Positions 1 to 8,964 of a stretch of DNA of 16,860 nucleotides are shown here, one piece after another; position 1 is the first letter of the stretch; each line of letters begins with the position of its first letter. The position numbers and the translations under genes were made by a program. The notes beneath the pieces were generated by a model. It did not search any database. It had not been told where the DNA came from and worked only from the letters and a program-made list of their open reading frames with translations. The DNA lies in NCBI GenBank assembly GCA_002403905.1, contig DHIR01000113.1, positions 1 through 16,860 of the forward strand. The letters are read 5' to 3'. This DNA is from Mucilaginibacter sp. UBA4741. Its GTDB lineage: Bacteria; Bacteroidota; Bacteroidia; Sphingobacteriales; Sphingobacteriaceae.

Positions 1-487
1 CCCCCGAACCATCAATGGAATCCCAACTGCCCACCACGTTAGCAATCGTAAAAGCCGTATTGTATCTGCTAAAGTCCAAATCTTCTAACTTGCCCGATGT
101 CAGGGCCACGTTCAACGAAAACAAATCCCCAAAAACTGACACTTCATATTCAGGGCGCCCCTTATCGATATTGATCTGCATCAGCCGCAGCACCCCCTTA
201 AAAGTTTGTATATTATCCTGAAATATAATACAGCTCGCGCTTTTACTGGCATTGAAATTATATCCAAAATTAGGCTGCGTCGCATCGTATGCGTTGCTTT
301 GCCCTATTTGAAACACGTGCCCTAATAGCTTATTATTGCCTGATGTCCCCGGCAAAATGATAGTCTTGCTGAATGAGGTTTGCCTGGCGCTAAAGTCGGC
401 GACATCATCAATGGCAAATGTTATTAGCGAAGAAATATCGGCGCTAATATCAGCCTTGTTATTTTCAATAAATACTTCAGTTCTCAT
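1..487 (-). CDS. Phage tail-tip protein (Bacteroidota type), truncated by left window edge
   Basis: The reading frame is open from ATG at 487 to the left edge, giving 162 residues with no stop, so the 3' part lies outside the window. The protein begins MRTEVFIENN. It has an N-terminal stretch (about residues 33-50) with the pattern S-x-x-Q-T-S-F-S-K-T-I-x-L-P-G-T-x-x-N, followed by an LLGHVFQIG segment. I know this N-terminal pattern from tail or baseplate proteins that follow a Dit-like gene in Bacteroidota phages. That is family recall, not a search result. The start overlaps the stop of the upstream 513-residue tail gene by one base (TAATG), which indicates translational coupling. A tail-tip or receptor-binding hub role is inferred from position and pattern. 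No catalytic motif is visible in the visible part. Confidence 0.75.
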   Translation of the reverse strand, partial: MRTEVFIENNKADISADISSLITFAIDDVADFSARQTSFSKTIILPGTSGNNKLLGHVFQIGQSNAYDATQPNFGYNFNASKSASCIIFQDNIQTFKGVLRLMQINIDKGRPEYEVSVFGDLFSLNVALTSGKLEDLDFSRYNTAFTIANVVGSWDSIDGSG

Positions 488-2028
488 TACCGGTATTGCG
501 CATTATACATTTCTCCAAATTCAAGGTCAATGATTAGGTTAGTCAACTTATCGTTTACATGCTTTTTGAATTCATAATTTGTATTAGTTATGGATACTGG
601 CCTAAAGAAGCCGTCCTGCTCGATATAAACCATTGGGGATAATGCGAGGTCGCCCAGCCATATATATTCGTCATCGGTTAATATATCGGTATTTAATGTT
701 AGCTTTTCGGTGTACTGGCTGGCGTATACGGATTTGGTTTCGTTATAGACATTATTGTTTGAATTAAAATAATTTACATGGCCGTCGCTATCTATCGTAT
801 ATGGCAATTTGCCGAAGCTTGTTTTTACAATATCGATAGCATCGCGCGATACCTTTGTAAAATTCCGGGTTTCAAAGCCGCCGAATTTATTTAAAAAGTG
901 CAATCGGTAAACCTGAAACCTCGCTTCACACACCATATCAAACCTATACAAGCTTGCGGCCCCAACCTGCACTGTATAGTATAGTACAGCATCATCAATA
1001 AAACCAGGCGTTAAAATATTGATCATGCCGGGGCTAACATTCAGCACCTGTAACTTTAATGCTTCTGCAGGTGTTAAAACAACAGTAAAAGTATTGCTGG
1101 CTACGGCCGGCGTAGAGCTTCCTGCGGATAAGTTGCTATAGGTGATCGCAAAGGAAGTGGAATCCAAAACTACCGGTTCCCTTGAAACATAATAGCGATA
1201 TGCCCCGATAACTACCGGCTCCCGAAATACAGCATCCGGAAACGTTCCGTAATTGAACGATGTATTAAACCAATTGGTTTTTACCGGCTCCGTTGCCGGT
1301 TCTTTAAGTACCAAATATTTAAGGTTTCCCGCGCTGGTGTAATTCAGCGAATGCGAGTTTGCACCGGAGATATAAGACAAGCCAAACTGCATGGTCTCGC
1401 TATCCACTGTACTATATGGGTCTGATGTAAAATAACCCCATTCTATCAGCACCGGCACCCCCGGAGCCGCTGCGCCGTATTTGGTGATAACTACATTGTA
1501 CGGATTGCTGGTTAATGGGAAGTAGGGGAGGAAGGTAAAGTTATCTTCGCCCATTACCGCTACCGCGTATGGCCGTAACGACACTACCTTATCCACGTAA
1601 GGCGGCAAATTGGTATTAGTGCCTAATAATCTGCCATTGTAATGATTATAATACCTGCGCTGGCTATCTACCGTAAGGTTTGTATACAGCGTAAAATCAT
1701 ATTCTTCTCCAAACTTTACCGTTACATCGATAAAAAAATCAGCCAGTCCTAACTCCTGGGCCAGCAAAGCAGTAGCATCGGGATCGAACGTTGTGGCGAA
1801 ATAACTCCTTACTACGTCCCCGATATTGAACACGCCCCTTTTATTGTCAGGCTGCGGTACTTTCTTTAGCCTTACAGCCAATGTCGAACCGATGTAAACA
1901 TCAGCTACATATTTATAATCTGGGTAAGTAACCGGATCATTTGCCTTTGTCGCTTCGTACACCACAAATATTAAGTCTCCTTGCGCGCTGTAATAGCTGC
2001 CCGGATTAGCGTTTATTACTATTGCCAT
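487..2028 (-). CDS. Phage tail protein, Dit-like/distal tail candidate (513 aa)
   Basis: This is a 513-residue protein rich in Tyr, Asn, Thr and Val, with no membrane segment and no catalytic motif, which suggests a beta-rich virion protein. Near residues 379-390 it carries LNKFGGFETRNF, a signature (LNxxGGF followed by NF) that I recognise from long tail-tip proteins in Bacteroidota phages. A short internal repeat, REPVV, appears twice around residues 270-286. Translation starts at ATG 2028, 23 bases inside the end of the preceding 215-residue gene, and the stop overlaps the start of the next tail gene by one base. The order of chaperone, completion protein, this gene and then a tip protein supports a tail-tip role. 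Whether it is Dit itself or an upper fiber/baseplate protein cannot be told from sequence alone. Confidence 0.7.
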   Translation of the reverse strand: MAIVINANPGSYYSAQGDLIFVVYEATKANDPVTYPDYKYVADVYIGSTLAVRLKKVPQPDNKRGVFNIGDVVRSYFATTFDPDATALLAQELGLADFFIDVTVKFGEEYDFTLYTNLTVDSQRRYYNHYNGRLLGTNTNLPPYVDKVVSLRPYAVAVMGEDNFTFLPYFPLTSNPYNVVITKYGAAAPGVPVLIEWGYFTSDPYSTVDSETMQFGLSYISGANSHSLNYTSAGNLKYLVLKEPATEPVKTNWFNTSFNYGTFPDAVFREPVVIGAYRYYVSREPVVLDSTSFAITYSNLSAGSSTPAVASNTFTVVLTPAEALKLQVLNVSPGMINILTPGFIDDAVLYYTVQVGAASLYRFDMVCEARFQVYRLHFLNKFGGFETRNFTKVSRDAIDIVKTSFGKLPYTIDSDGHVNYFNSNNNVYNETKSVYASQYTEKLTLNTDILTDDEYIWLGDLALSPMVYIEQDGFFRPVSITNTNYEFKKHVNDKLTNLIIDLEFGEMYNAQYR

Positions 2029-2653
2029 CGTTTAAGTTTTTTGGTAATGCATTTATTATATCAATAGCCAGCGCCCGGCCTAATACATCCTGTGAATATT
2101 CCTGGGCTATTTTAATTGCTTTATCCAGGTATCCGCTTCCTTTTATGCCATGTATTTTTATGGAACGGGCAACAGCAAAGGCGTGATCATATTGGCTTAT
2201 TGATTTATTTTTTGATTCGAGATTGCTTACCGGCTTTGAAATAATAGAAGTAGACGCTCCGCCTCTGGCTATCCATGCGGTAATAGACTTAACCATTTCA
2301 GCAGATGGGAACGCGGATTTAAAACTATAGTTACCCATACTGCCGCCGCCCCTTACGCCGCGCACTCCCTTGTTTTGGAAGTCGAAGTAATCAAGCGCCT
2401 CAATATCTAAGTGAATAGTTTTGCCTGTGCTTGATGGGTTGTTAACTTTAAAGCTATCAGATAAAGCGCCGGATGATACCTGTGCGGATTGATGCAAATT
2501 CTCGCCTACCTTTTCAATTAATATCCCGGCAACCTTTATAAGCGCCGTTAAGCTTTCCTTTGGTGTAAAATCAGTTGCTTTATCTGATCCTAAACCACCT
2601 AAGAAACCGCTTGATATTGCGCCTGCCTGTGCCGAGCTTATACTTTGTGCCAT
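2006..2653 (-). CDS. Tail-completion/neck-like protein, HK97 gp10 type candidate (215 aa)
   Basis: This 215-residue soluble protein has a Ser/Ala/Gly-rich N-terminus. A middle region reads like the HK97 gp10/tail-completion pattern: LHQSAQVSSGALSDSF (about residues 53-68), then an I-x-L-D-I-E-A-L-D-Y-F-D-F strand, then NKGVRG (about residues 84-99). In that family, a helix ending in an SGxLSxS segment is followed by strands and a Y-x-x-[FY]-x-N-x-G-V-x-G loop. The match is by pattern memory and is only moderate. The gene lies directly downstream of the frameshifting chaperone and the reverse-strand insert, and upstream of the 513-residue tail gene, which it overlaps by 23 bases. Its 5' leader shares a 10-base element with the chaperone leader. 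It is too short for a typical tape measure, but a very short tape measure cannot be excluded. Confidence 0.5.
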   Translation of the reverse strand: MAQSISSAQAGAISSGFLGGLGSDKATDFTPKESLTALIKVAGILIEKVGENLHQSAQVSSGALSDSFKVNNPSSTGKTIHLDIEALDYFDFQNKGVRGVRGGGSMGNYSFKSAFPSAEMVKSITAWIARGGASTSIISKPVSNLESKNKSISQYDHAFAVARSIKIHGIKGSGYLDKAIKIAQEYSQDVLGRALAIDIINALPKNLNDGNSNKR

Positions 2654-2710: not shown

Positions 2711-2929
2711 ATGTCGCCAAAGAGGTATAATATAGACAATGATATAATCCAATTAAGCTGCCCCCGGTATGACTGCATAGAGATAACACAATGCGCAACC
2801 ATTGAGGTGAAAATAAAAGATTATGTGTACGGCAAGCTAAAATGCCCCATTTGCGGTTCGCCACTGAATACAGTACAGGAGAACACTATTCAGCATCAAT
2901 TGATCGCTTTAGGAATAATTGATATTTGA
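2711..2929 (+). CDS. Small zinc-ribbon-like protein, only plus-strand gene (72 aa)
   Basis: This 72-residue ORF begins with ATG at 2711 and is the only plus-strand candidate not explained as a shadow of a minus-strand gene. It fits exactly into the gap between the start of the 215-residue gene (2653) and the stop of the frameshifted chaperone (2931). The protein has Cys17-x4-Cys22 and Cys45-x2-Cys48 in a CPxC context, plus a Cys28, which is compatible with one small zinc-binding knuckle. I do not recognise the family. Its opposite orientation inside a tail operon, with a possible promoter of its own, fits a moron-type insertion. If it is not translated, 220 bases between the tail genes would be unexplained. 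Confidence 0.6.
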   Translation: MSPKRYNIDNDIIQLSCPRYDCIEITQCATIEVKIKDYVYGKLKCPICGSPLNTVQENTIQHQLIALGIIDI

Positions 2930-2930
2930 T

Positions 2931-3676
2931 TTATTTACTCCATTCTTTCAGCAACCGCTTCTCATGTTCAGCCTTTGCCTTTAAATAACTAAGATCATTC
3001 AATACCTGTACAACCGGTAATTCGTATGCCAGATCAAGGGGAATGTCTTCTAAGCGAGCGACCTGCTCTGTTGAATAAATCCATCCATAGCGTTTATTGA
3101 ATTGGTCAGCAGTCTCGTTGCCTGGTTCCTCGTCGCCCCCTTGCTCATCATTTCCTTTATCAAAAAGTCCCGGGTATGTTCTATTAAATCCCTGTAGAGT
3201 TTGCAAAAAAAAACACATGAATGATAAACGGCGAATAATGGAGCATTGAGCATATCGCTTGCAATCTCTTCATGATTGCTTGCTTTGTTCCTGATCTTAA
3301 ATCCCCATTTAACACGGGTTACAAGCGAAGCCATAATGTTGTGCATATTCTCAACCGGCTTATCGGAGAAGTGAAGTATCTCAACGTATTGACGATGCTT
3401 CAATTCAGTTGGCCGGTAGTTGATAGCGTACTTTTTTACACCTACCCTAAATGATCTTACAGGCTTTCCCGGTATGGTATCGGTTGATAAAAACTTCTTG
3501 CAATCTTTAGCAAGTTCATTAAACCCAAGTATTGACATTTCGTCAACCTGCGCTTCGGTTTTATTGTAAAGTATACATATTACCCGGCTTAGCTTTTCGA
3601 TCTCATCGATATTGGCAGTAAGGGATAATCTATGAATGTCTTGAAATTGCTGGAGTGTTATATTTTCCCACGTCAT
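2931..3676 (-). CDS. Frameshifted tail-assembly chaperone (GT-like fusion, 248 aa predicted)
   Basis: This is the predicted -1 frameshift product. It uses the first 157 codons of the ORF starting at ATG 3676, slips at the T9 run (3213-3205), then reads 91 codons of the overlapping -1 frame (from TTG at 3206) to the stop at 2931. The extension starts LQTLQGF, contains an acidic Gly/Glu stretch, then a helical segment with RYGWIYSTEQVARLEDIPLD, and ends KRLLKEWSK. In lambda and many other long-tailed phages the G gene is extended to GT by -1 slippage, and both forms chaperone the tape measure during tail assembly. The layout here matches that mechanism. No typical tape measure gene follows, so assignment rests on N-terminal family resemblance and frameshift architecture. 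A missing T in the homopolymer would produce the same picture. Confidence 0.65.
3050..3676 (-). CDS. Tail-assembly chaperone, unshifted form (G-like, 208 aa)
   Basis: The zero-frame product is 208 residues, from ATG 3676 to the stop at 3050. It begins MTWENITLQQFQDIHRLS and includes a DEIEKLSRVICILYNK helix, an KYAINYRPTELKHRQYVE region and an IMASL helix. I associate this pattern with predicted tail-assembly chaperones of Bacteroidota phages. The last 51 codons (3205-3050) overlap the -1 extension frame, so this stretch is dual-coding if both products are made. The gene lies 38 bases downstream of the large terminase stop. The protein is soluble with no catalytic motif. The function is inferred from resemblance and the slippery site, not from a direct search. 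Confidence 0.65.
   Translation of the reverse strand: MTWENITLQQFQDIHRLSLTANIDEIEKLSRVICILYNKTEAQVDEMSILGFNELAKDCKKFLSTDTIPGKPVRSFRVGVKKYAINYRPTELKHRQYVEILHFSDKPVENMHNIMASLVTRVKWGFKIRNKASNHEEIASDMLNAPLFAVYHSCVFFCKLYRDLIEHTRDFLIKEMMSKGATRNQATRLLTNSINAMDGFIQQSRSLA
3205..3213 (-). promoter_or_regulatory. Programmed -1 frameshift slippery site (T9 run)
   Basis: The minus strand reads GTT TTT TTT TGC in the chaperone frame, so a T TTT TTT heptamer sits exactly in the X XXY YYZ register needed for simultaneous -1 slippage of both tRNAs. After slippage the next codon is TTG at 3206-3204, and the new frame stays open for 91 codons. Downstream there is a CCCGGG palindrome and a GC-rich GGGGGCGACGAGG stretch. 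I did not establish a convincing stimulatory pseudoknot. Confidence 0.65.
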
Positions 3677-3714: not shown

Positions 3715-4926
3715 TTACCAAATACTTATACTGCCCATATTAACGCTATCTTTCCAAATGCTATATGCCAAAGCTAAGGCGCAAACACAATCATCATGCG
3801 TTCCTTCCGGCGCTGAATACTTTACCCCTGTCCGGGTGTACTCAAATTCAAATGCCTCTAACTCTTCCCTTATCATTCCTTCCGGGAAGAATATCTCTCG
3901 CCGCTGAATAGCATAGGCCAGCCCTTCCATTAACTGCTGCTTGCTTCGTTGGGTGAATACCTTTAGCGTTACATTATCCCGCTTACTTGCGATATCTTCC
4001 GCAATAGGATCGCCAACGCCGGTGCTGTCTATCGCTAAAGGAGCTACCGGCAGCCCTAATATTGTTTCGGTTGTTTGCCGCCAATCCTTTTGAAACCTAT
4101 CGAAGTGCGATACATAAGCAAACTTATCAAGCCCTATATTTACGGTAAAGTCGAACTTCTTTGCCAGGTCAGTCCCAAAGCAAACAGCCGGCTTATCTGA
4201 TAACGGATAAGTGCATTGAGCTATATACTGTAAACCAAAAGGATTACTTCCATCTTCGCTTGCTTCCGCAAGGTACAGCTCATTAAACACGCTTTCTGGC
4301 AAATCCTTTTTAGCATCCTCTATCTCTTCAATGAATGGCCTGCCGTCCTTAGTTTTCATTCCGGCGCTTGCCGCGTCGTAAGCGGTTATTTTAAAATACT
4401 CGTAGTTCGGATCATCGCCTGACTTTGCCTTTATTGCCAACTTGTAGCCCCAGTTCTTTTTCCCTTTTGCATTCCCTATGAATTTACATTTGCCCCCGGT
4501 GGACGTTAGGGTTGAGCGTAACGCGTGCCAGCTTTCTTCACGGCCCCTGGTGTACTCGTCATATACCGCCGCATAAACGTCACCCCCATAAAGGTTATCC
4601 GGCTTTTCAGCGGTCTTAAATTCCATCTTAGCGCCGGTAATGAGCGTAATGGTCCTATTCGTTTCGTTCGCAGTAAACAGGTCCTTATTACTGATCTGCA
4701 CTTTCATGCGATCAAATGCGATTTTCGCCTGGCCTATTGTCGGTGCTACCCACCAAACTGATTGATTGGCTTTACACTTTAAAGCCTGCTCGAATAACCA
4801 AACGATATGGCTTGCCGTCTTTCCAACCTTAGTCGCCGCAATAGTTACGGTGAACCTGGCTTTGCTGTTTAGTATAGCAAGCTGGTAGGGGTAGAGAAAG
4901 GGGCGCGTATAGTTTATTGTTGGCAT
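3715..4926 (-). CDS. terL: Terminase large subunit (403 aa)
   Basis: This is the packaging motor ATPase and headful/end-cutting nuclease. The ATPase domain shows a Walker A-like motif A30-x4-G35-K36-T37, a Walker B VYAAVYDE at 117-124 with catalytic Glu124, and a coupling-type motif around GNAKG (151-155). The C-terminal RNase H-like nuclease has acidic residues in the expected three places: Asp253 in FGTDL, Asp300/Asp306 in AIDSTGVGD, and Asp378/Asp379 in GTHDD. At 403 residues it is at the short end for the family but appears complete. The start at ATG 4926 lies 13 bases inside the end of the GT9-like gene. The matching small subunit is encoded about 3.4 kb upstream, separated by six or more accessory genes, which is unusual. 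Confidence 0.93.
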   Translation of the reverse strand: MPTINYTRPFLYPYQLAILNSKARFTVTIAATKVGKTASHIVWLFEQALKCKANQSVWWVAPTIGQAKIAFDRMKVQISNKDLFTANETNRTITLITGAKMEFKTAEKPDNLYGGDVYAAVYDEYTRGREESWHALRSTLTSTGGKCKFIGNAKGKKNWGYKLAIKAKSGDDPNYEYFKITAYDAASAGMKTKDGRPFIEEIEDAKKDLPESVFNELYLAEASEDGSNPFGLQYIAQCTYPLSDKPAVCFGTDLAKKFDFTVNIGLDKFAYVSHFDRFQKDWRQTTETILGLPVAPLAIDSTGVGDPIAEDIASKRDNVTLKVFTQRSKQQLMEGLAYAIQRREIFFPEGMIREELEAFEFEYTRTGVKYSAPEGTHDDCVCALALAYSIWKDSVNMGSISIW

Positions 4927-5600
4927 AATCGAAATACAACTTCTTCCACTTCTATATCGGGTATGTGTTTATCAAATAATACCGCGTCAGGGTTTTGCCC
5001 CCAGCGTCCCTGATTAAAAAACAAATAATTAGTTACCCCCAGCGCATGCGCCAGGTGAGATATGCCGGTAACAACGCTTATTAAACCATGCTTGCTGTTT
5101 TTTAGCAGGTTGCAAACGTAGTCCATGGAGTGCCCGAATTGCGGGGTAATGTTAGGCGCTTTGATGAAATCAACAGGGTCAATAGCGGGATCGCCTAACA
5201 AAGCAAACTGCTTGCCGGGCATCGCATCAACAAGCTCCTGCCATTTATCCCATTTTTGCTCCGGTGGTAATGAGCGGCTAAACGGGGCCAGCAGAAAATC
5301 AAACACAGGCGCATGGCAGGGGTTAATTTTTAAAATCGGCTTTGGTATATCCTGCGGAACAGGTAAATCGGCATAAGCAAAATTAGCCTGTATCATGTGC
5401 AGGTTTTCCCGGCTGGCAAGTTCAAATGCCGCGTGCAAATCAAAAGACAAATCTTCATTTATATAAGCGCGTTTTAATCCGGTCATATTAAAAAGGTGCA
5501 CCATGCTTTCCCTTATGATTACATCCGCCCCTAATGCCTGCATTGCCGGGATAGTGCCTATAAAATCCCCGATCAGATCATTGTCGTTCCTGATTATCAT
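4914..5600 (-). CDS. GT9/heptosyltransferase-like glycosyltransferase (228 aa)
   Basis: This 228-residue protein looks like a shortened GT-B glycosyltransferase of the GT9 (heptosyltransferase) type. The N-terminal GDFIGTIPAMQAL (about residues 11-23) resembles the GDxLxxxPaLral start of the family. The second half has LLAPFSRSLPPEQKWDKW, then an LLGDP turn, and ends with GISHLAHALGVTNYLFFN, where the HxAxALG-type nucleotide-sugar-binding segment is expected. Full-length family members are usually over 300 residues, so the N-terminal acceptor domain is reduced. The start overlaps the methyltransferase stop (ATGA), and the end overlaps the large terminase start. It probably transfers a sugar to a glycan or virion component. 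The substrate cannot be read from sequence. Confidence 0.65.
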   Translation of the reverse strand: MIIRNDNDLIGDFIGTIPAMQALGADVIIRESMVHLFNMTGLKRAYINEDLSFDLHAAFELASRENLHMIQANFAYADLPVPQDIPKPILKINPCHAPVFDFLLAPFSRSLPPEQKWDKWQELVDAMPGKQFALLGDPAIDPVDFIKAPNITPQFGHSMDYVCNLLKNSKHGLISVVTGISHLAHALGVTNYLFFNQGRWGQNPDAVLFDKHIPDIEVEEVVFRLCQQ

Positions 5601-6130
5601 ATTACCACTAATGCTTGGAAGTTTGCACTAACGCAAAACTTTAACCCGGATTCATCCAATGCCTTTTTAACGCCGGGGCAGTTGCCCCATCCGTAGTCGT
5701 CAAATACGATCATGCCGCCCTTAACCATGCGGGGCGCGAACCATTCGATACACGCCTTAACTGACAGGTAAAAATCCGTGTCAATGTGCGCCAATGCAAT
5801 ATTTTCAATACCGCCGGTACTTTCTATACTCCATGGGAAAAGCCCTTTTATTAAATGAACATTTTTTGAATTAACGAAGTCTCTTACCGCTTCTATGCTG
5901 GTATCAGAAAACTCGCCGGGGTTATGGCGCTCGTCCTTATTCCAATGCTCCGGCGGCAACCCCTCAAATGTATCAAATCCCCAAACCTGCCTATCTGGAA
6001 ACAACTCCGCTAAATACTTTAATGATCCGCCCCTGTATACGCCTACCTCGGCAATTAACCCCGGAGGGATTAATTGCGCATTACGCTTGAATGTTTCCAG
6101 CCGGTCATTTGTGATTAAGGTATTATCCAT
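5597..6130 (-). CDS. TylF/MacF-type SAM-dependent methyltransferase (177 aa)
   Basis: The protein has a class I methyltransferase core with motif I at residues 26-36 (IAEVGVYRGGS), a WGFDTFEGLP strand-loop, and a metal-binding-type HIDTDFY segment. It ends with the IVFDDYGW...C-x-GVKKALDE block typical of the TylF/MacF family (PF05711), which O-methylates sugars in macrolide and related glycan pathways. At 177 residues it is shorter than the antibiotic enzymes but keeps the core. It overlaps the preceding gene by 8 bases and the following GT9-like gene by 4 (ATGA), so it belongs to a glycan-modifying cassette. Sugar O-methylation is the likely reaction. Another small acceptor is possible. Confidence 0.8.
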   Translation of the reverse strand: MDNTLITNDRLETFKRNAQLIPPGLIAEVGVYRGGSLKYLAELFPDRQVWGFDTFEGLPPEHWNKDERHNPGEFSDTSIEAVRDFVNSKNVHLIKGLFPWSIESTGGIENIALAHIDTDFYLSVKACIEWFAPRMVKGGMIVFDDYGWGNCPGVKKALDESGLKFCVSANFQALVVI

Positions 6131-6452
6131 TTTTATTGGGGTTTTTACGTTTCTTTTTTGCTATTTCAGGTTTGTCATGTTTTGGGAACGTGGCCCTTTG
6201 AACATCTGCAGGTAGTTCCTTTGGTTGCGCCAATAGCCATTTATCATATTGCGTATATACAAACTTCACCAAATCGCAAACGCATGGCCCGCACCATAAG
6301 TTGGCTTGATAGGCAGGGGCGAATACTCTCGCTGTGTTTAATAATTCCTCTTTGACCTGGTATCCTAAATTAGTCAGGAAGTCCGCTTTGATCAGCGTGT
6401 CATAATGCGGGCGGTTCTGCTCTAAGAAATCTTGTTGGTCTTGTGATAGCAT
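6123..6452 (-). CDS. Hypothetical protein with WCGPC motif and basic tail (109 aa)
   Basis: This is a 109-residue, mostly helical protein of unknown function. It contains WCGPC at residues 53-57 with a further Cys59, and a Lys-rich C-terminus (KKKRKNPNKNG). WCGPC is the thioredoxin active-site sequence. However, the surrounding helices lack the preceding beta strand and a recognisable cis-proline, so a thioredoxin fold is unlikely. The cysteines could bind metal or simply pack between helices. The gene starts by TAATG overlap with the 66-residue gene and runs 8 bases into the methyltransferase gene, so it is part of the same operon. Confidence 0.7.
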   Translation of the reverse strand: MLSQDQQDFLEQNRPHYDTLIKADFLTNLGYQVKEELLNTARVFAPAYQANLWCGPCVCDLVKFVYTQYDKWLLAQPKELPADVQRATFPKHDKPEIAKKKRKNPNKNG

Positions 6453-6652
6453 TAGCTTATTTCTATTACAGCCTGTTTAAATACTTCCGGGCCGAGAGTT
6501 ATTACACCCTTAGTGGTATAAAATGTTATTGATGATTGAGACGGCATGAGACCAATACCTGCTTTATATTGCTCAATATTAAAGCCATCCGCCAATTGGC
6601 CATCGATGGGTTGCGTATCAGAAAATGGAAAGCTAATCTTTAAAGTTTTCAT
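6452..6652 (-). CDS. Hypothetical small protein in glycan cassette (66 aa)
   Basis: This is a 66-residue soluble protein beginning MKTLKISFPF. It shows alternating hydrophobic stretches (SITFYTTKGVITLG) that suggest a small beta-sheet protein. I do not recognise a family. It begins 20 bases inside the 3' end of the GT4-type gene and its stop overlaps the next start by one base, so it is embedded in a translationally coupled string. This context and clean coupling are the main evidence that it is real. Confidence 0.6.
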   Translation of the reverse strand: MKTLKISFPFSDTQPIDGQLADGFNIEQYKAGIGLMPSQSSITFYTTKGVITLGPEVFKQAVIEIS

Positions 6653-7592
6653 ATCTTTTTTGGTTTATCGTTTGAAAGTTGTATTCTATTTTGCAATGAC
6701 CGTTAAGTATTGTGCCTAACTCATTCCGCATACCCTCGTCGTGAATAAGGTTATTTATATGCTTAAACCAATCTTTTTGGCTCTCGGCATATAACACCGG
6801 CAAATCCAAATATGGGTCAACCTTGCTGCAGATAATAGGCAAAGAACAATGAGCGGCTTCTAATACTTTTAGGTTTGATTTCAGCGCGTTAAAGCGTGAG
6901 GCAACTAAGGGCGCTATGCATATATCCGCATGGCTGTAATTAGAATAATACTCAAAAGGTGATTTACCAGGCAGCACCATCCCAGGCAGTGATAAGCCGT
7001 TGGTAAAGGCGTTAACCATCTTTTTCCAAACAGGATGATCGGTATACCCGGCTATGATAGTAGCGCAATTATTTAACCTTTTAAATGGATTTTTTAAAAG
7101 CATTATATCTTTTTCGTGCGTGATACTGCCCTGCCAAAAAATGCGGGGCAGCTTACTCTCGCTTTTTTCAGTCTTGAAATATTCGTGATCCGGGATAGCG
7201 TTCGGGCAAATAATCACATTTGAGTTATACGGCCTTATTAATTCAGCTAATCGCTCGTGTGTAGTTGTAATCACGTCGGCGACTTGCATGTGCCTGATCT
7301 GTAAATTAGCAAACCCGCCATTTTTATAATCGTCGAACGCGATATGATAATGATCCAGGTGCCAGTAATCATCAATGTCTACAATTATCTTAGCCTTGTG
7401 TTTAATGGCTAACTTTAGTACATCATCGCCGATTATCCGGTTATAATAAACCGCGTCGCATCCCTTTTCAAAGTCTTCTTCAGTAATTGAATTGGTGATG
7501 TAGGTATCAATATCAGGCATGAGTAGCAACGGCATGATAATCCGGTGAAACCCTGGCCCGCTATCTTTATTTACAAGTCCGATTATTCTCAT
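6633..7592 (-). CDS. GT4-type glycosyltransferase (319 aa)
   Basis: This GT-B glycosyltransferase transfers a sugar from an activated donor. Visible landmarks are VDIDDYWHL (71-79), an RPYNSNVIICPNAI linker, the phosphate-loop-type WQGSITHEKD (153-162) at the start of the donor domain, and the donor-binding block RFNALKSNLKVLEAA (233-247) followed by LPIICSKVDPY. This looks like the family with 'KSNIKYLEYAA' signatures found in phages and capsule clusters. I prefer ATG 7592 over the in-frame GTG at 7598: the ATG makes an ATGA overlap with the membrane-protein stop and has AGGTGG just upstream. It probably glycosylates a virion protein or host surface glycan. The acceptor is unknown. Confidence 0.85.
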   Translation of the reverse strand: MRIIGLVNKDSGPGFHRIIMPLLLMPDIDTYITNSITEEDFEKGCDAVYYNRIIGDDVLKLAIKHKAKIIVDIDDYWHLDHYHIAFDDYKNGGFANLQIRHMQVADVITTTHERLAELIRPYNSNVIICPNAIPDHEYFKTEKSESKLPRIFWQGSITHEKDIMLLKNPFKRLNNCATIIAGYTDHPVWKKMVNAFTNGLSLPGMVLPGKSPFEYYSNYSHADICIAPLVASRFNALKSNLKVLEAAHCSLPIICSKVDPYLDLPVLYAESQKDWFKHINNLIHDEGMRNELGTILNGHCKIEYNFQTINQKRYENFKD

Positions 7593-7816
7593 AGCCACCT
7601 ATATTTAACAGCTTCAAACATGGCGCCGGCAAAACAACCAACCGGGTAAAATAATATACTCCAGATTCCATGCCCTGTCAGTATTGCTAATACTAATGCC
7701 AGCCACCCGGTCAGGCACATCATGCAGTTAAAAGGCTTAAACTTTGGCCACTGGATTATATTAATCCAGCAGAAAGCTATTGATAGTGCTGTTATTATTA
7801 ATTCGATATTGCTCAT
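7589..7816 (-). CDS. Small membrane protein with Cys-pair motif (75 aa)
   Basis: This 75-residue protein has a first membrane helix at about residues 4-21 and a second, long hydrophobic stretch at about 34-66. Between them is FNCMMCLTGW, a Cys-x-x-Cys turn that I have seen in small membrane proteins of Bacteroidota phages. It could sit in the inner membrane and anchor the glycosyltransferase encoded next, or be unrelated to it. It has ATGA overlaps at both ends, with the sigma-like gene before and the GT4-type gene after. Confidence 0.65.
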   Translation of the reverse strand: MSNIELIITALSIAFCWINIIQWPKFKPFNCMMCLTGWLALVLAILTGHGIWSILFYPVGCFAGAMFEAVKYRWL

Positions 7817-8304
7817 GCTACTTTTTTTCTAATCGCCTTGCAGGCCCTTTGCACTGTTTTATATATACTTTCAAATGGTATCCCGGTTTCGGCTTCCACC
7901 GCCCTGTATGTTCCGAGCTTTCCGTATAGCTTGATAATCTCCCGGTCGTACCAGTAAAGGTTTTCTATTCCTAAAATGGCCGAGTCCTTTTTATCATTTA
8001 AACATGGCTCCGGTTGCTCTATAAATGGCTCTATTAATTCAGATAACTCAATATTATTGCCCCTGAATTTTTTGTAAAATGGGCTGGTGTTGCTTTTTAT
8101 TAAATTTAATATGATCCGTACCGTATAAAATTTTAATCCGCCTGAGTTATAGAGTTCCAATATCTTTTCCTCGCTCATCTCGCATAAGATCAATGCCACC
8201 TCGGACTTTAATTCGTCTTGCAGACATTCCGGTTTCATCTTTGCAATGCAGCCGGTAAAATCTTTAGAGACAAACAAGTCGGTTATGATCTTATCCCTTG
8301 TCAT
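7813..8304 (-). CDS. Sigma-70-like / HTH transcription factor (163 aa)
   Basis: The N-terminal part (about residues 24-85) contains PECLQDELKSEVALILCEM, then LKFYTVRIILN and SPFYKKFR, a pattern resembling reduced sigma region 2 in Bacteroidota phage sigma-like proteins. The C-terminal part, LYGKLGTYRAVEAETGIPFESIYKTVQRACKAIRKK, is a clear helix-turn-helix like sigma region 4. A role as a phage-specific sigma factor or late activator is inferred. Its position between the terminase genes, just upstream of the tail block, suits late-gene control. It is joined to the small terminase gene by a TAATG overlap. It could instead be a DNA-binding packaging accessory. Confidence 0.65.
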   Translation of the reverse strand: MTRDKIITDLFVSKDFTGCIAKMKPECLQDELKSEVALILCEMSEEKILELYNSGGLKFYTVRIILNLIKSNTSPFYKKFRGNNIELSELIEPFIEQPEPCLNDKKDSAILGIENLYWYDREIIKLYGKLGTYRAVEAETGIPFESIYKTVQRACKAIRKKVA

Positions 8305-8708
8305 TATAGATTAAGCTTAACATCATATACATCAAGTTTAATGTCCTGCTTATCCGCAAGCCCTAATTTCCTGGCAATTATATTAGCGTTAAATATTCCG
8401 GCGGTTGCCCCCTCGAATTGATCTTTCTCGATAAATCTTTTAATGCGCGTTATGATAGGTAGATAATCTTTATAAGAATTATCGGCGTTAGCTTCATAAC
8501 TTGAAAGATTGCAAATTATTTTATTGTCATATAGGTAGCATTCGAAGCCTACCCATGTTAGTGGTCGCTCCAGCCTTCGGTTAACCGAGTCGCCGTCTTT
8601 TCCTACGAAGTCATGCTTTAAATAAGGCTTGGCTTTTGTATCAGCCATGTAAGCTATAAATAGGCCCCAAAGCTTTTCGGGCGTTTTAATATACTTATGC
8701 TTACTCAC
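8304..8708 (-). CDS. terS: Terminase small subunit, P22 gp3-like (134 aa)
   Basis: This protein recognises viral DNA and loads the large terminase. The signature is C-terminal: FEGATAGIFNANIIARKLGLADKQD (about residues 99-122) matches the conserved 'E-x-A-x-x-G-x-F-N-x-x-I-I-A-R-x-L-G-L-x-D-K' end of the gp3-type family (PF16677). The N-terminal part, from YIKTPEKLWGLFIAYM, is a helical DNA-binding region. The start is GTG at 8708, directly after an in-frame TAA, so no longer start is possible. The next ATG is about 19 codons downstream and would cut the first helix. It is the first gene after the terminator and tRNA, so a promoter is likely just upstream. Confidence 0.85.
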   Translation of the reverse strand: MSKHKYIKTPEKLWGLFIAYMADTKAKPYLKHDFVGKDGDSVNRRLERPLTWVGFECYLYDNKIICNLSSYEANADNSYKDYLPIITRIKRFIEKDQFEGATAGIFNANIIARKLGLADKQDIKLDVYDVKLNL

Positions 8709-8776: not shown

Positions 8777-8890
8777 GCTGGCTGCATCTTGTGGTTACTC
8801 CGATTTTCGCCTATCGTATAATTACCGGTACCACTTCGGCGGGGCTTTTACCTGAATATTACCTCCGATTTCTTAAACAGGGAAAGAATG

Positions 8891-8964
8891 TTGCGGCGAC
8901 AGGACTCGAACCTGCGACCTTCGGGTTATGGGCCCGACGAGCTGACCGGCTGCTCTACTCCGCA
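8891..8964 (-). tRNA. tRNA-Met (CAT), initiator-like
   Basis: The 74-base cloverleaf on the minus strand folds completely: acceptor stem with U1-A72, D-arm GAGC/GCTC, anticodon stem TCGGG/CCCGA, a 5-base variable loop and T-arm GCAGG/CCTGT with TTCGAGT loop. The anticodon is CAT. The three consecutive G-C pairs (29-31 with 39-41) and A11-U24 are hallmarks of bacterial initiator tRNA. The first acceptor pair is weak (U-A), where initiators avoid a strong pair. Oddities are C33 instead of the near-universal U33, an A6-G67 mismatch and no encoded CCA. It lies among same-strand phage genes, so it is phage-borne and not an attachment site at a prophage end. Confidence 0.92.

Follow-up and report, generated by a model that had tools for sequence, protein, structure and literature searches.

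A run of nine T probably directs a programmed −1 shift to a G/GT-like protein pair in the tail module of Bacteroidota phages

In phage lambda, gpG and gpGT are encoded by two overlapping ORFs and produced through a −1 ribosomal shift, the −1 product sharing its N-terminus with gpG. The shift is placed near the 3' end of gene g and GT extends G; the domains of the pair are described as coating the tape-measure protein and recruiting the tail tube subunit (PMC5009743). A run of nine is also known from the 9A/9T genes with transcriptional slippage, e.g., Thermus dnaX and IS elements (Baranov 2005, PMC1088944). We found no published description of the family reported here in the literature on chaperone frameshifting, on slippage, and on Bacteroidetes, Flavobacterium, and Nonlabens phages, a body of papers that lay mostly outside subscription journals. 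PMC8008677, which we met in the Bacteroidetes frameshift literature, concerns a reverse transcriptase in its accessible text.

We analyzed a stretch of 16,860 nucleotides (the window) from a genome assembly of 299 contigs and about 80% completeness. The minus strand reads GTT TTT TTT TGC in codons 155–158 of a 208-residue ORF, and codons 155–157 span the in-phase heptamer T TTT TTT (Table 1). The −1 frame runs in codons from 3206 to 2934 with a stop at 2931–2933, giving a −1 product of 157 + 91 = 248 residues. Re-reading of the sequence confirmed every number of the original prediction concerning the coordinates and register of the heptamer, and reproduced the proposed slip into a 91-codon ORF with a fusion of 248 residues. 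The statement that both frames are open over 3050–3206 was borne out from the run to 3053, and the arithmetic by which 10 T would make one continuous ORF is correct. In the following, G denotes the zero-frame product, T the part encoded in the −1 frame, and GT the joined product.

Table 1. Coordinates of the recoding site, the two reading frames, and neighboring genes in the window.
Feature	Position	Strand	Basis or remark
T9 run	3205..3213	-	Runs from 3213 down to 3205; sequence and register
In-phase slippery heptamer T TTT TTT	3206..3212	-	Register read from the sequence
G-like zero-frame ORF, 208 aa	3050..3676	-	ORF list; 70 protein matches including itself; AlphaFold2 model
T-like −1 frame, 91 codons after the shift plus stop	2931..3206	-	ORF list; 35-row alignment
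Dual-coded overlap of zero and −1 frames	3053..3206	-	About 154 nt; both wobble classes slowed
Terminase large subunit	3715..4926	-	phrog_2, E 2.7e-27; directly upstream of the pair
Terminase small subunit	8304..8708	-	PF16677, phrog_606
215-aa ORF downstream of the pair	2006..2653	-	Similar-sized ORF follows the pair in the relatives listed
513-aa ORF	487..2028	-	phrog_35281 (labelled unknown function)
Start of 690-aa ORF	2..487	-	Whole in L006, there followed by a tape-measure-like gene

The locus shares several features with the lambda gpG/gpGT system. Two ORFs overlap and the −1 product has the N-terminus in common with G, a long upstream ORF is overlapped by a −1 ORF without a conserved start of its own, and a tape-measure-like gene belongs to the module of several relatives. 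Furthermore, an in-phase slippery site is kept in 174 of 174 distinct junctions, being absent in locus L334 and in 15 loci with a fused gene. The tape-measure-like gene is the fourth ORF downstream of the pair in L006 and the nearest upstream ORF on the same strand in L036. Unlike in lambda, the shift point lies 53 codons ahead of the end of the 208-codon G gene, and the zero-frame stretch from the run onwards comprises 28–65 residues in 31 lineages. GT would therefore swap the C-terminus of G instead of extending it, replacing the last 51 residues (158–208, the C-terminal helices) by a T domain of 91 residues. The dual-coded stretch of about 154 nt, the homopolymer site in nearly all relatives, and the lack of any sequence or fold match to lambda in our searches further set the locus apart. 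Taken by its sequence, the locus is probably a tail-module gene of a Bacteroidota phage in which a programmed −1 shift at T9 leads to two products in a G/GT-like manner; the best reading is a conserved two-product recoding gene of a large phage group that would work like G/GT with a variant architecture.

To gather DNA of relatives, we used three kinds of query: the whole G, G cut short ahead of the run, and T peptides alone. Cutting G kept the run from influencing which loci were found. With these cut queries, T9 was in place in 72 of 73 loci, and the 73rd fell outside the script's window on a contig that has T9 (the same as L027). In the T-peptide scan, for which the best 80 of 425 named relatives were fetched, 78 loci had T9, one had T8, and one had T10 at a contig edge. 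The 174 distinct junctions comprise 169 with T9 (164 in phase 1 and five, from two lineages, in phase 2), two each with T8 and T10, and one with T7. TTT TTT follows an NNT codon in every junction, which is automatic where the run is at least nine long; the X XXY YYZ register is likewise present throughout and is informative beyond run length only for T7 and T8. In these shorter runs (T7 in L111; T8 in L112 and L255), the heptamer is in phase and both frames are open. The 174 exclude L221, whose T10 lies at a contig edge; L331 and L340, which are at contig edges and lack the site; L334, with its internal deletion; L098, on the contig of L027; P12024L; and the 15 fused loci. The original prediction had proposed aligning relatives to see whether the slippery run and both frames are kept; the in-phase site was retained in all distinct junctions, and both frames proved constrained in the overlap.

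Junctions with a T peptide of at least 60 aa (172) fall into 43 lineages at 70% T identity, and for an earlier set of 81 loci, clustering at 70% N-terminal identity gives 31 lineages, of which 29 have T9. For phase-1 T9 in 27 lineages, the joint probability is about 10^-22.5 if amino acids are kept and synonymous codons are free; this value and the joint probability for the zero frame given below treat lineages as independent and are thus indicative only. F156, F157, and C158 are invariant in the alignment of the 70 zero-frame proteins found with the G of the window (itself included), and none of these proteins contains a T-domain motif. The isolated Nonlabens phages P12024S and P12024L carry T9 at the same place, and their frames are annotated as separate hypothetical proteins. 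In P12024S, gp38 (PHROG 32199) is the zero-frame product and gp39 (PHROG 38404) the 3' part of the −1 frame; the match to the window is weak (E 0.067). Against named phage records, tblastn gave no match for the window's G, L020, L022, or L112, two weak matches in Pseudomonas phage Bf7 records for L027, and only Nonlabens phages plus one weak Xanthomonas phage match for P12024S. L108 (G362), a weak match that looked unrelated, was dropped.

Two further loci are damaged. L110 (G766) is a remnant with a broken G-like gene in which T9 in phase 2 is retained, and in L334 (about 4951–5611) an internal deletion in the G-like gene removes the slippery site, with the T frame open downstream.

Both frames are constrained over the overlap of about 154 nt. 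In a 35-row alignment of the −1 peptides, GW, LN, and K positions are near-invariant, and in the zero-frame tail past the run, G199 is invariant and A186, S193, and M197 are near-invariant among 70 rows. Wobble sites were compared in 20 disjoint close pairs. Those of the −1 frame differ at 0.186 where single-coded vs. 0.097 in the overlap, and those of the zero frame at 0.272 before the run vs. 0.100 in the overlap. When codons were redrawn with the −1 protein given, the joint probability of the zero frame remaining open as far as it does was about 10^-23.7 (31 lineages, assumed independent). The claim of the original prediction that a programmed −1 shift gives this DNA two C-termini, and with it the existence of a two-product gene, is strongly supported by this conservation.

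The BFVD entries A0A6J7WJY4 and A0A516L611 match both the G and the T model, and relatives with one ORF were therefore sought. When protein sequences were searched with the T portion of GT, five proteins of 223–240 residues (P0078–P0082) were obtained. Their first 141 positions align with the G profile at a probability of 99.8% (hhalign, E 5.2e-30), and the T profile is matched by the last 105 (99.9%, E 1.4e-31). In a scan for the fused type, 82 relatives were named and 80 retained; 15 loci are fused (L274–L288), and the other 65 comprise 58 with T9, four with T10, two contig edges, and one internal deletion. Two T10 loci were read out, and their frames are still zero and −1. In the stretch examined near the junction, none of the 15 fused loci has a T run above 5. 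All 15 lie between a match to the terminase large subunit just upstream and a match to the gene of about 390 aa downstream, with PHROG matches for these neighbors confirmed in three. One fused locus (L276) has a terminase 70% identical to that of the window, placing the split and fused forms in fairly close relatives. Since fused orthologues exist, the GT product is a genuine protein elsewhere and the split form does not represent decay. A single ORF without a heptamer, which the original prediction had named as evidence against recoding, occurs only in this separate subfamily, where it supports fusion and does not refute a shift in the window. The frame-shifted pair and the one-ORF fusion are two orthologous solutions that occupy the same place in the gene order. 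By this route, no separate G arises in the fused subfamily, so some relatives may do without a G:GT ratio; if these phages truly lack a separate G, a fixed two-product ratio would not be required in all long-tailed phages.

Regarding the gene neighborhood, relatives of the 513-aa ORF with about 390 aa follow in both split and fused loci, and the 215-aa ORF has no family match at E 0.01 or better. L006 has the same G as the window; downstream of the pair, three ORFs lead up to a tape-measure-like protein (phrog_24676, E 2.5e-7), behind which come a protease and, further on, a probable capsid gene. In Mucilaginibacter pedocola TBZ30 (L036), which shows the same layout, an opposite-strand ORF lies between the tape-measure-like gene and the pair. 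Matches to tape-measure families were obtained for three of three candidates in a first test set, including L006 and L036; among four further candidates, L288 and L011 matched, L020 matched weakly, and L280 did not match.

The AlphaFold2 model of G has a mean pLDDT of 90. The T model (mean pLDDT 74) shows a disordered linker and two long helices, making the T domain an acidic flexible linker followed by a two-helix domain. Neither product matched a chaperone family in Pfam, PHROGs, or NCBIfam, and searches for the fold of G in the PDB listed no convincing match. Structural matches in BFVD are to uncharacterized phage proteins, along with weak matches to entries named tail assembly chaperone (E 0.14 over 59 columns for one). 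Flavobacterium phage 6H gp10, a weaker fold match assigned by length, was dropped; it has no T9, and its −1 frame closes right after T TTT TTC. In the 6H locus (L038, 10047–10927), T TTT TTC is in phase, and the 305-nt gap after gp10 contains an open frame that is unannotated.

A G/GT-like tail assembly chaperone is probably the correct identity, as layout, size, position, and the fused relatives suggest. The original prediction of such a pair holds as the best functional reading, with tape-measure-like genes in the modules of several relatives and natural fusions in its favor; no chaperone family, solved fold, or profile matched, however, and the architecture differs from that of lambda. The chaperone reading is built on layout and does not extend to membership in a named chaperone family. 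In the proposed mechanism, the shift at T9 would lead to the 208-residue G-like protein and the 248-residue GT-like protein, with GT expected to be the rarer one; we infer the occurrence of this shift as well as its level and rate. If the lambda roles carry over, the N-terminal domain common to both products would cover the tape-measure protein, and the tail tube subunit would be brought in by the T domain. Unlabelled protein families of Bacteroidota phages, including PHROG 32199 and 38404, would thereby gain a probable function.

Three alternatives concern the nature of the gene. A real two-product recoding gene could have a job other than that of a chaperone, e.g., as a head–tail joining or scaffold factor. 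The missing match to any known chaperone family, fold, or profile fits this view, as do the position of the pair next to the terminase, the three ORFs between the pair and the tape-measure-like gene in L006, and the fact that no major tail protein was recognised. We nevertheless consider it improbable in view of the G/GT layout, the size of the products, and the acidic linker, the presence of a tape-measure-like gene in the module (in L036, it is the first ORF upstream on the same strand), and the weak match in BFVD to a protein entered as tail assembly chaperone. That T is instead a separate gene with its own start, requiring no shift, would agree with an ATG that opens the −1 frame of the window two codons before the run (3216–3218) and with the seven database entries, the window's own included, that list T as a separate protein. 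In 19 of the 31 lineages, however, the open −1 frame offers no ATG, GTG, or TTG in the 60 nt upstream; five lineages have an ATG, and seven have only GTG or TTG. A separate T would also leave the invariant TTT TTT unexplained and is difficult to reconcile with fused orthologues, which makes it very improbable.

The original prediction had offered a miscalled homopolymer as its own alternative, and a decayed gene would likewise mean that the true gene is one ORF. One additional T would indeed join the frames, and fused relatives do exist. We regard the chance of this as negligible: T9 in relatives, in isolates, and in separate assemblies rules out a miscall, the zero frame is constrained past the run, and the fused relatives form a separate subfamily without a T run above 5 near the junction.

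Within the reading as a programmed shift, slippage may take place at two levels. The ribosome would slip on U UUU UUU to reach the −1 frame, and we favor this as the most likely level, though with some reserve. Alternatively, RNA polymerase would slip on T9 and add a U, the ribosome would read the U10 mRNA unshifted, and the run length would be under selection. This is a rather unlikely possibility, and the small remaining share falls to slippage at both levels or to another process. The junction reads V-F-F-L-Q whether a U10 message is translated or the ribosome shifts by −1; protein evidence, including the mass spectrometry suggested in the original prediction, cannot separate the two. Likewise, T9 was seen in two codon phases, each T9 holding an in-phase heptamer, and since any T9 contains one, the 169 T9 cases cannot discriminate ribosome from polymerase.

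Several findings speak for the polymerase. T9 is kept in 169 of 174 junctions, even where the phase of the run differs by one codon position, and in the ORFs of 12 phage loci, T runs of at least nine occur only at this site, with T8 found twice elsewhere. Run lengths in genes were compared with expectations from synonymous resampling in 914 kb (L133–L192) from the related hosts G765 and G732, long ORFs being taken as genes. T runs of at least nine are depleted there (4 vs. 18.7 expected), as are A runs of at least nine (7 vs. 37.3), and runs of 7–8 T are not avoided (O/E 1.16 in phase and 1.12 out of phase). Nine is thus the length from which runs are depleted in the genes of two related hosts, a feature shared with the 9A/9T genes, and selection against slippage is reported to be evident from length nine in many genomes (Baranov 2005). 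As in-phase T7–8 is not avoided in the two hosts, the heptamer alone may shift weakly there. A general ribosomal stimulator was also not found in 31 lineages: stimulatory structures and upstream SD sequences, which are common but not universal in programmed −1 ribosomal frameshifting, show no general signal here. Pseudoknot-free folding of the downstream RNA gave a mean z of +0.27 vs. +0.17 for the control, and SD-like stimulators lie upstream in only three of 31 lineages. L044 is the sole lineage with a strong downstream hairpin (z −3.9).

Other findings argue against the polymerase. The window's own genome shows no depletion (T at least nine, 2 vs. 2.1 expected; A at least nine, 8 vs. 9.0) in a small sample of 149 genes and 165 kb (G000, L113–L132), in which in-phase T heptamers number 13 vs. 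19.8 expected. Unlike in the 9A/9T genes, three relatives with T7 or T8 (L111, L112, and L255) keep the in-phase heptamer and both open frames, and a heptamer is always present in phase. T9 may also follow from protein constraints: NTT (Val/Ile/Leu) in frame zero together with Leu (TTA/TTG) in frame −1 around the heptamer results in exactly T9, and the codon after TTT TTT is Tyr, Cys, or Trp in 165 of 174 junctions. The depletion of long runs may have a mutational origin. For E. coli genes, PMC4066793 reports a shortage of the seven-U motif in each of the three frames and names transcriptional slippage or indels as possible causes. Finally, in the chaperone pairs that PMC5009743 discusses, it is the ribosome that shifts. 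It appears doubtful that polymerase slippage on T9, and not the ribosome, sets the product ratio in a large group of tailed Bacteroidota phages, with T9 held at a length that related hosts' genes avoid and sister phages having given up the ratio for one fused protein. The locus offers a natural comparison of ribosomal and transcriptional slippage.

Beyond the locus itself, T or A runs of at least nine in the G765 and G732 genes are depleted about five-fold, runs of 6–7 are slightly enriched, and the step lies between 8 and 9. In the window, the region between the terminase subunit genes (4914–7598, minus strand) encodes a TylF-like methyltransferase (PF05711, E 1.1e-20), a glycosyltransferase (PF13692, E 1.1e-7), and a 228-aa ORF that appears glycosyltransferase-like by eye and has no Pfam match; ORFs of similar appearance, again judged by eye, are found ahead of the terminase in L011, L020, and L276. 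The gap behind the T frame holds a 72-aa ORF with two cysteine pairs and no Pfam match (2711–2929, plus strand); it is oriented against the phage genes. A tRNA-Met (CAT) gene lies at 8890–8964 on the minus strand, upstream of the terminase genes.
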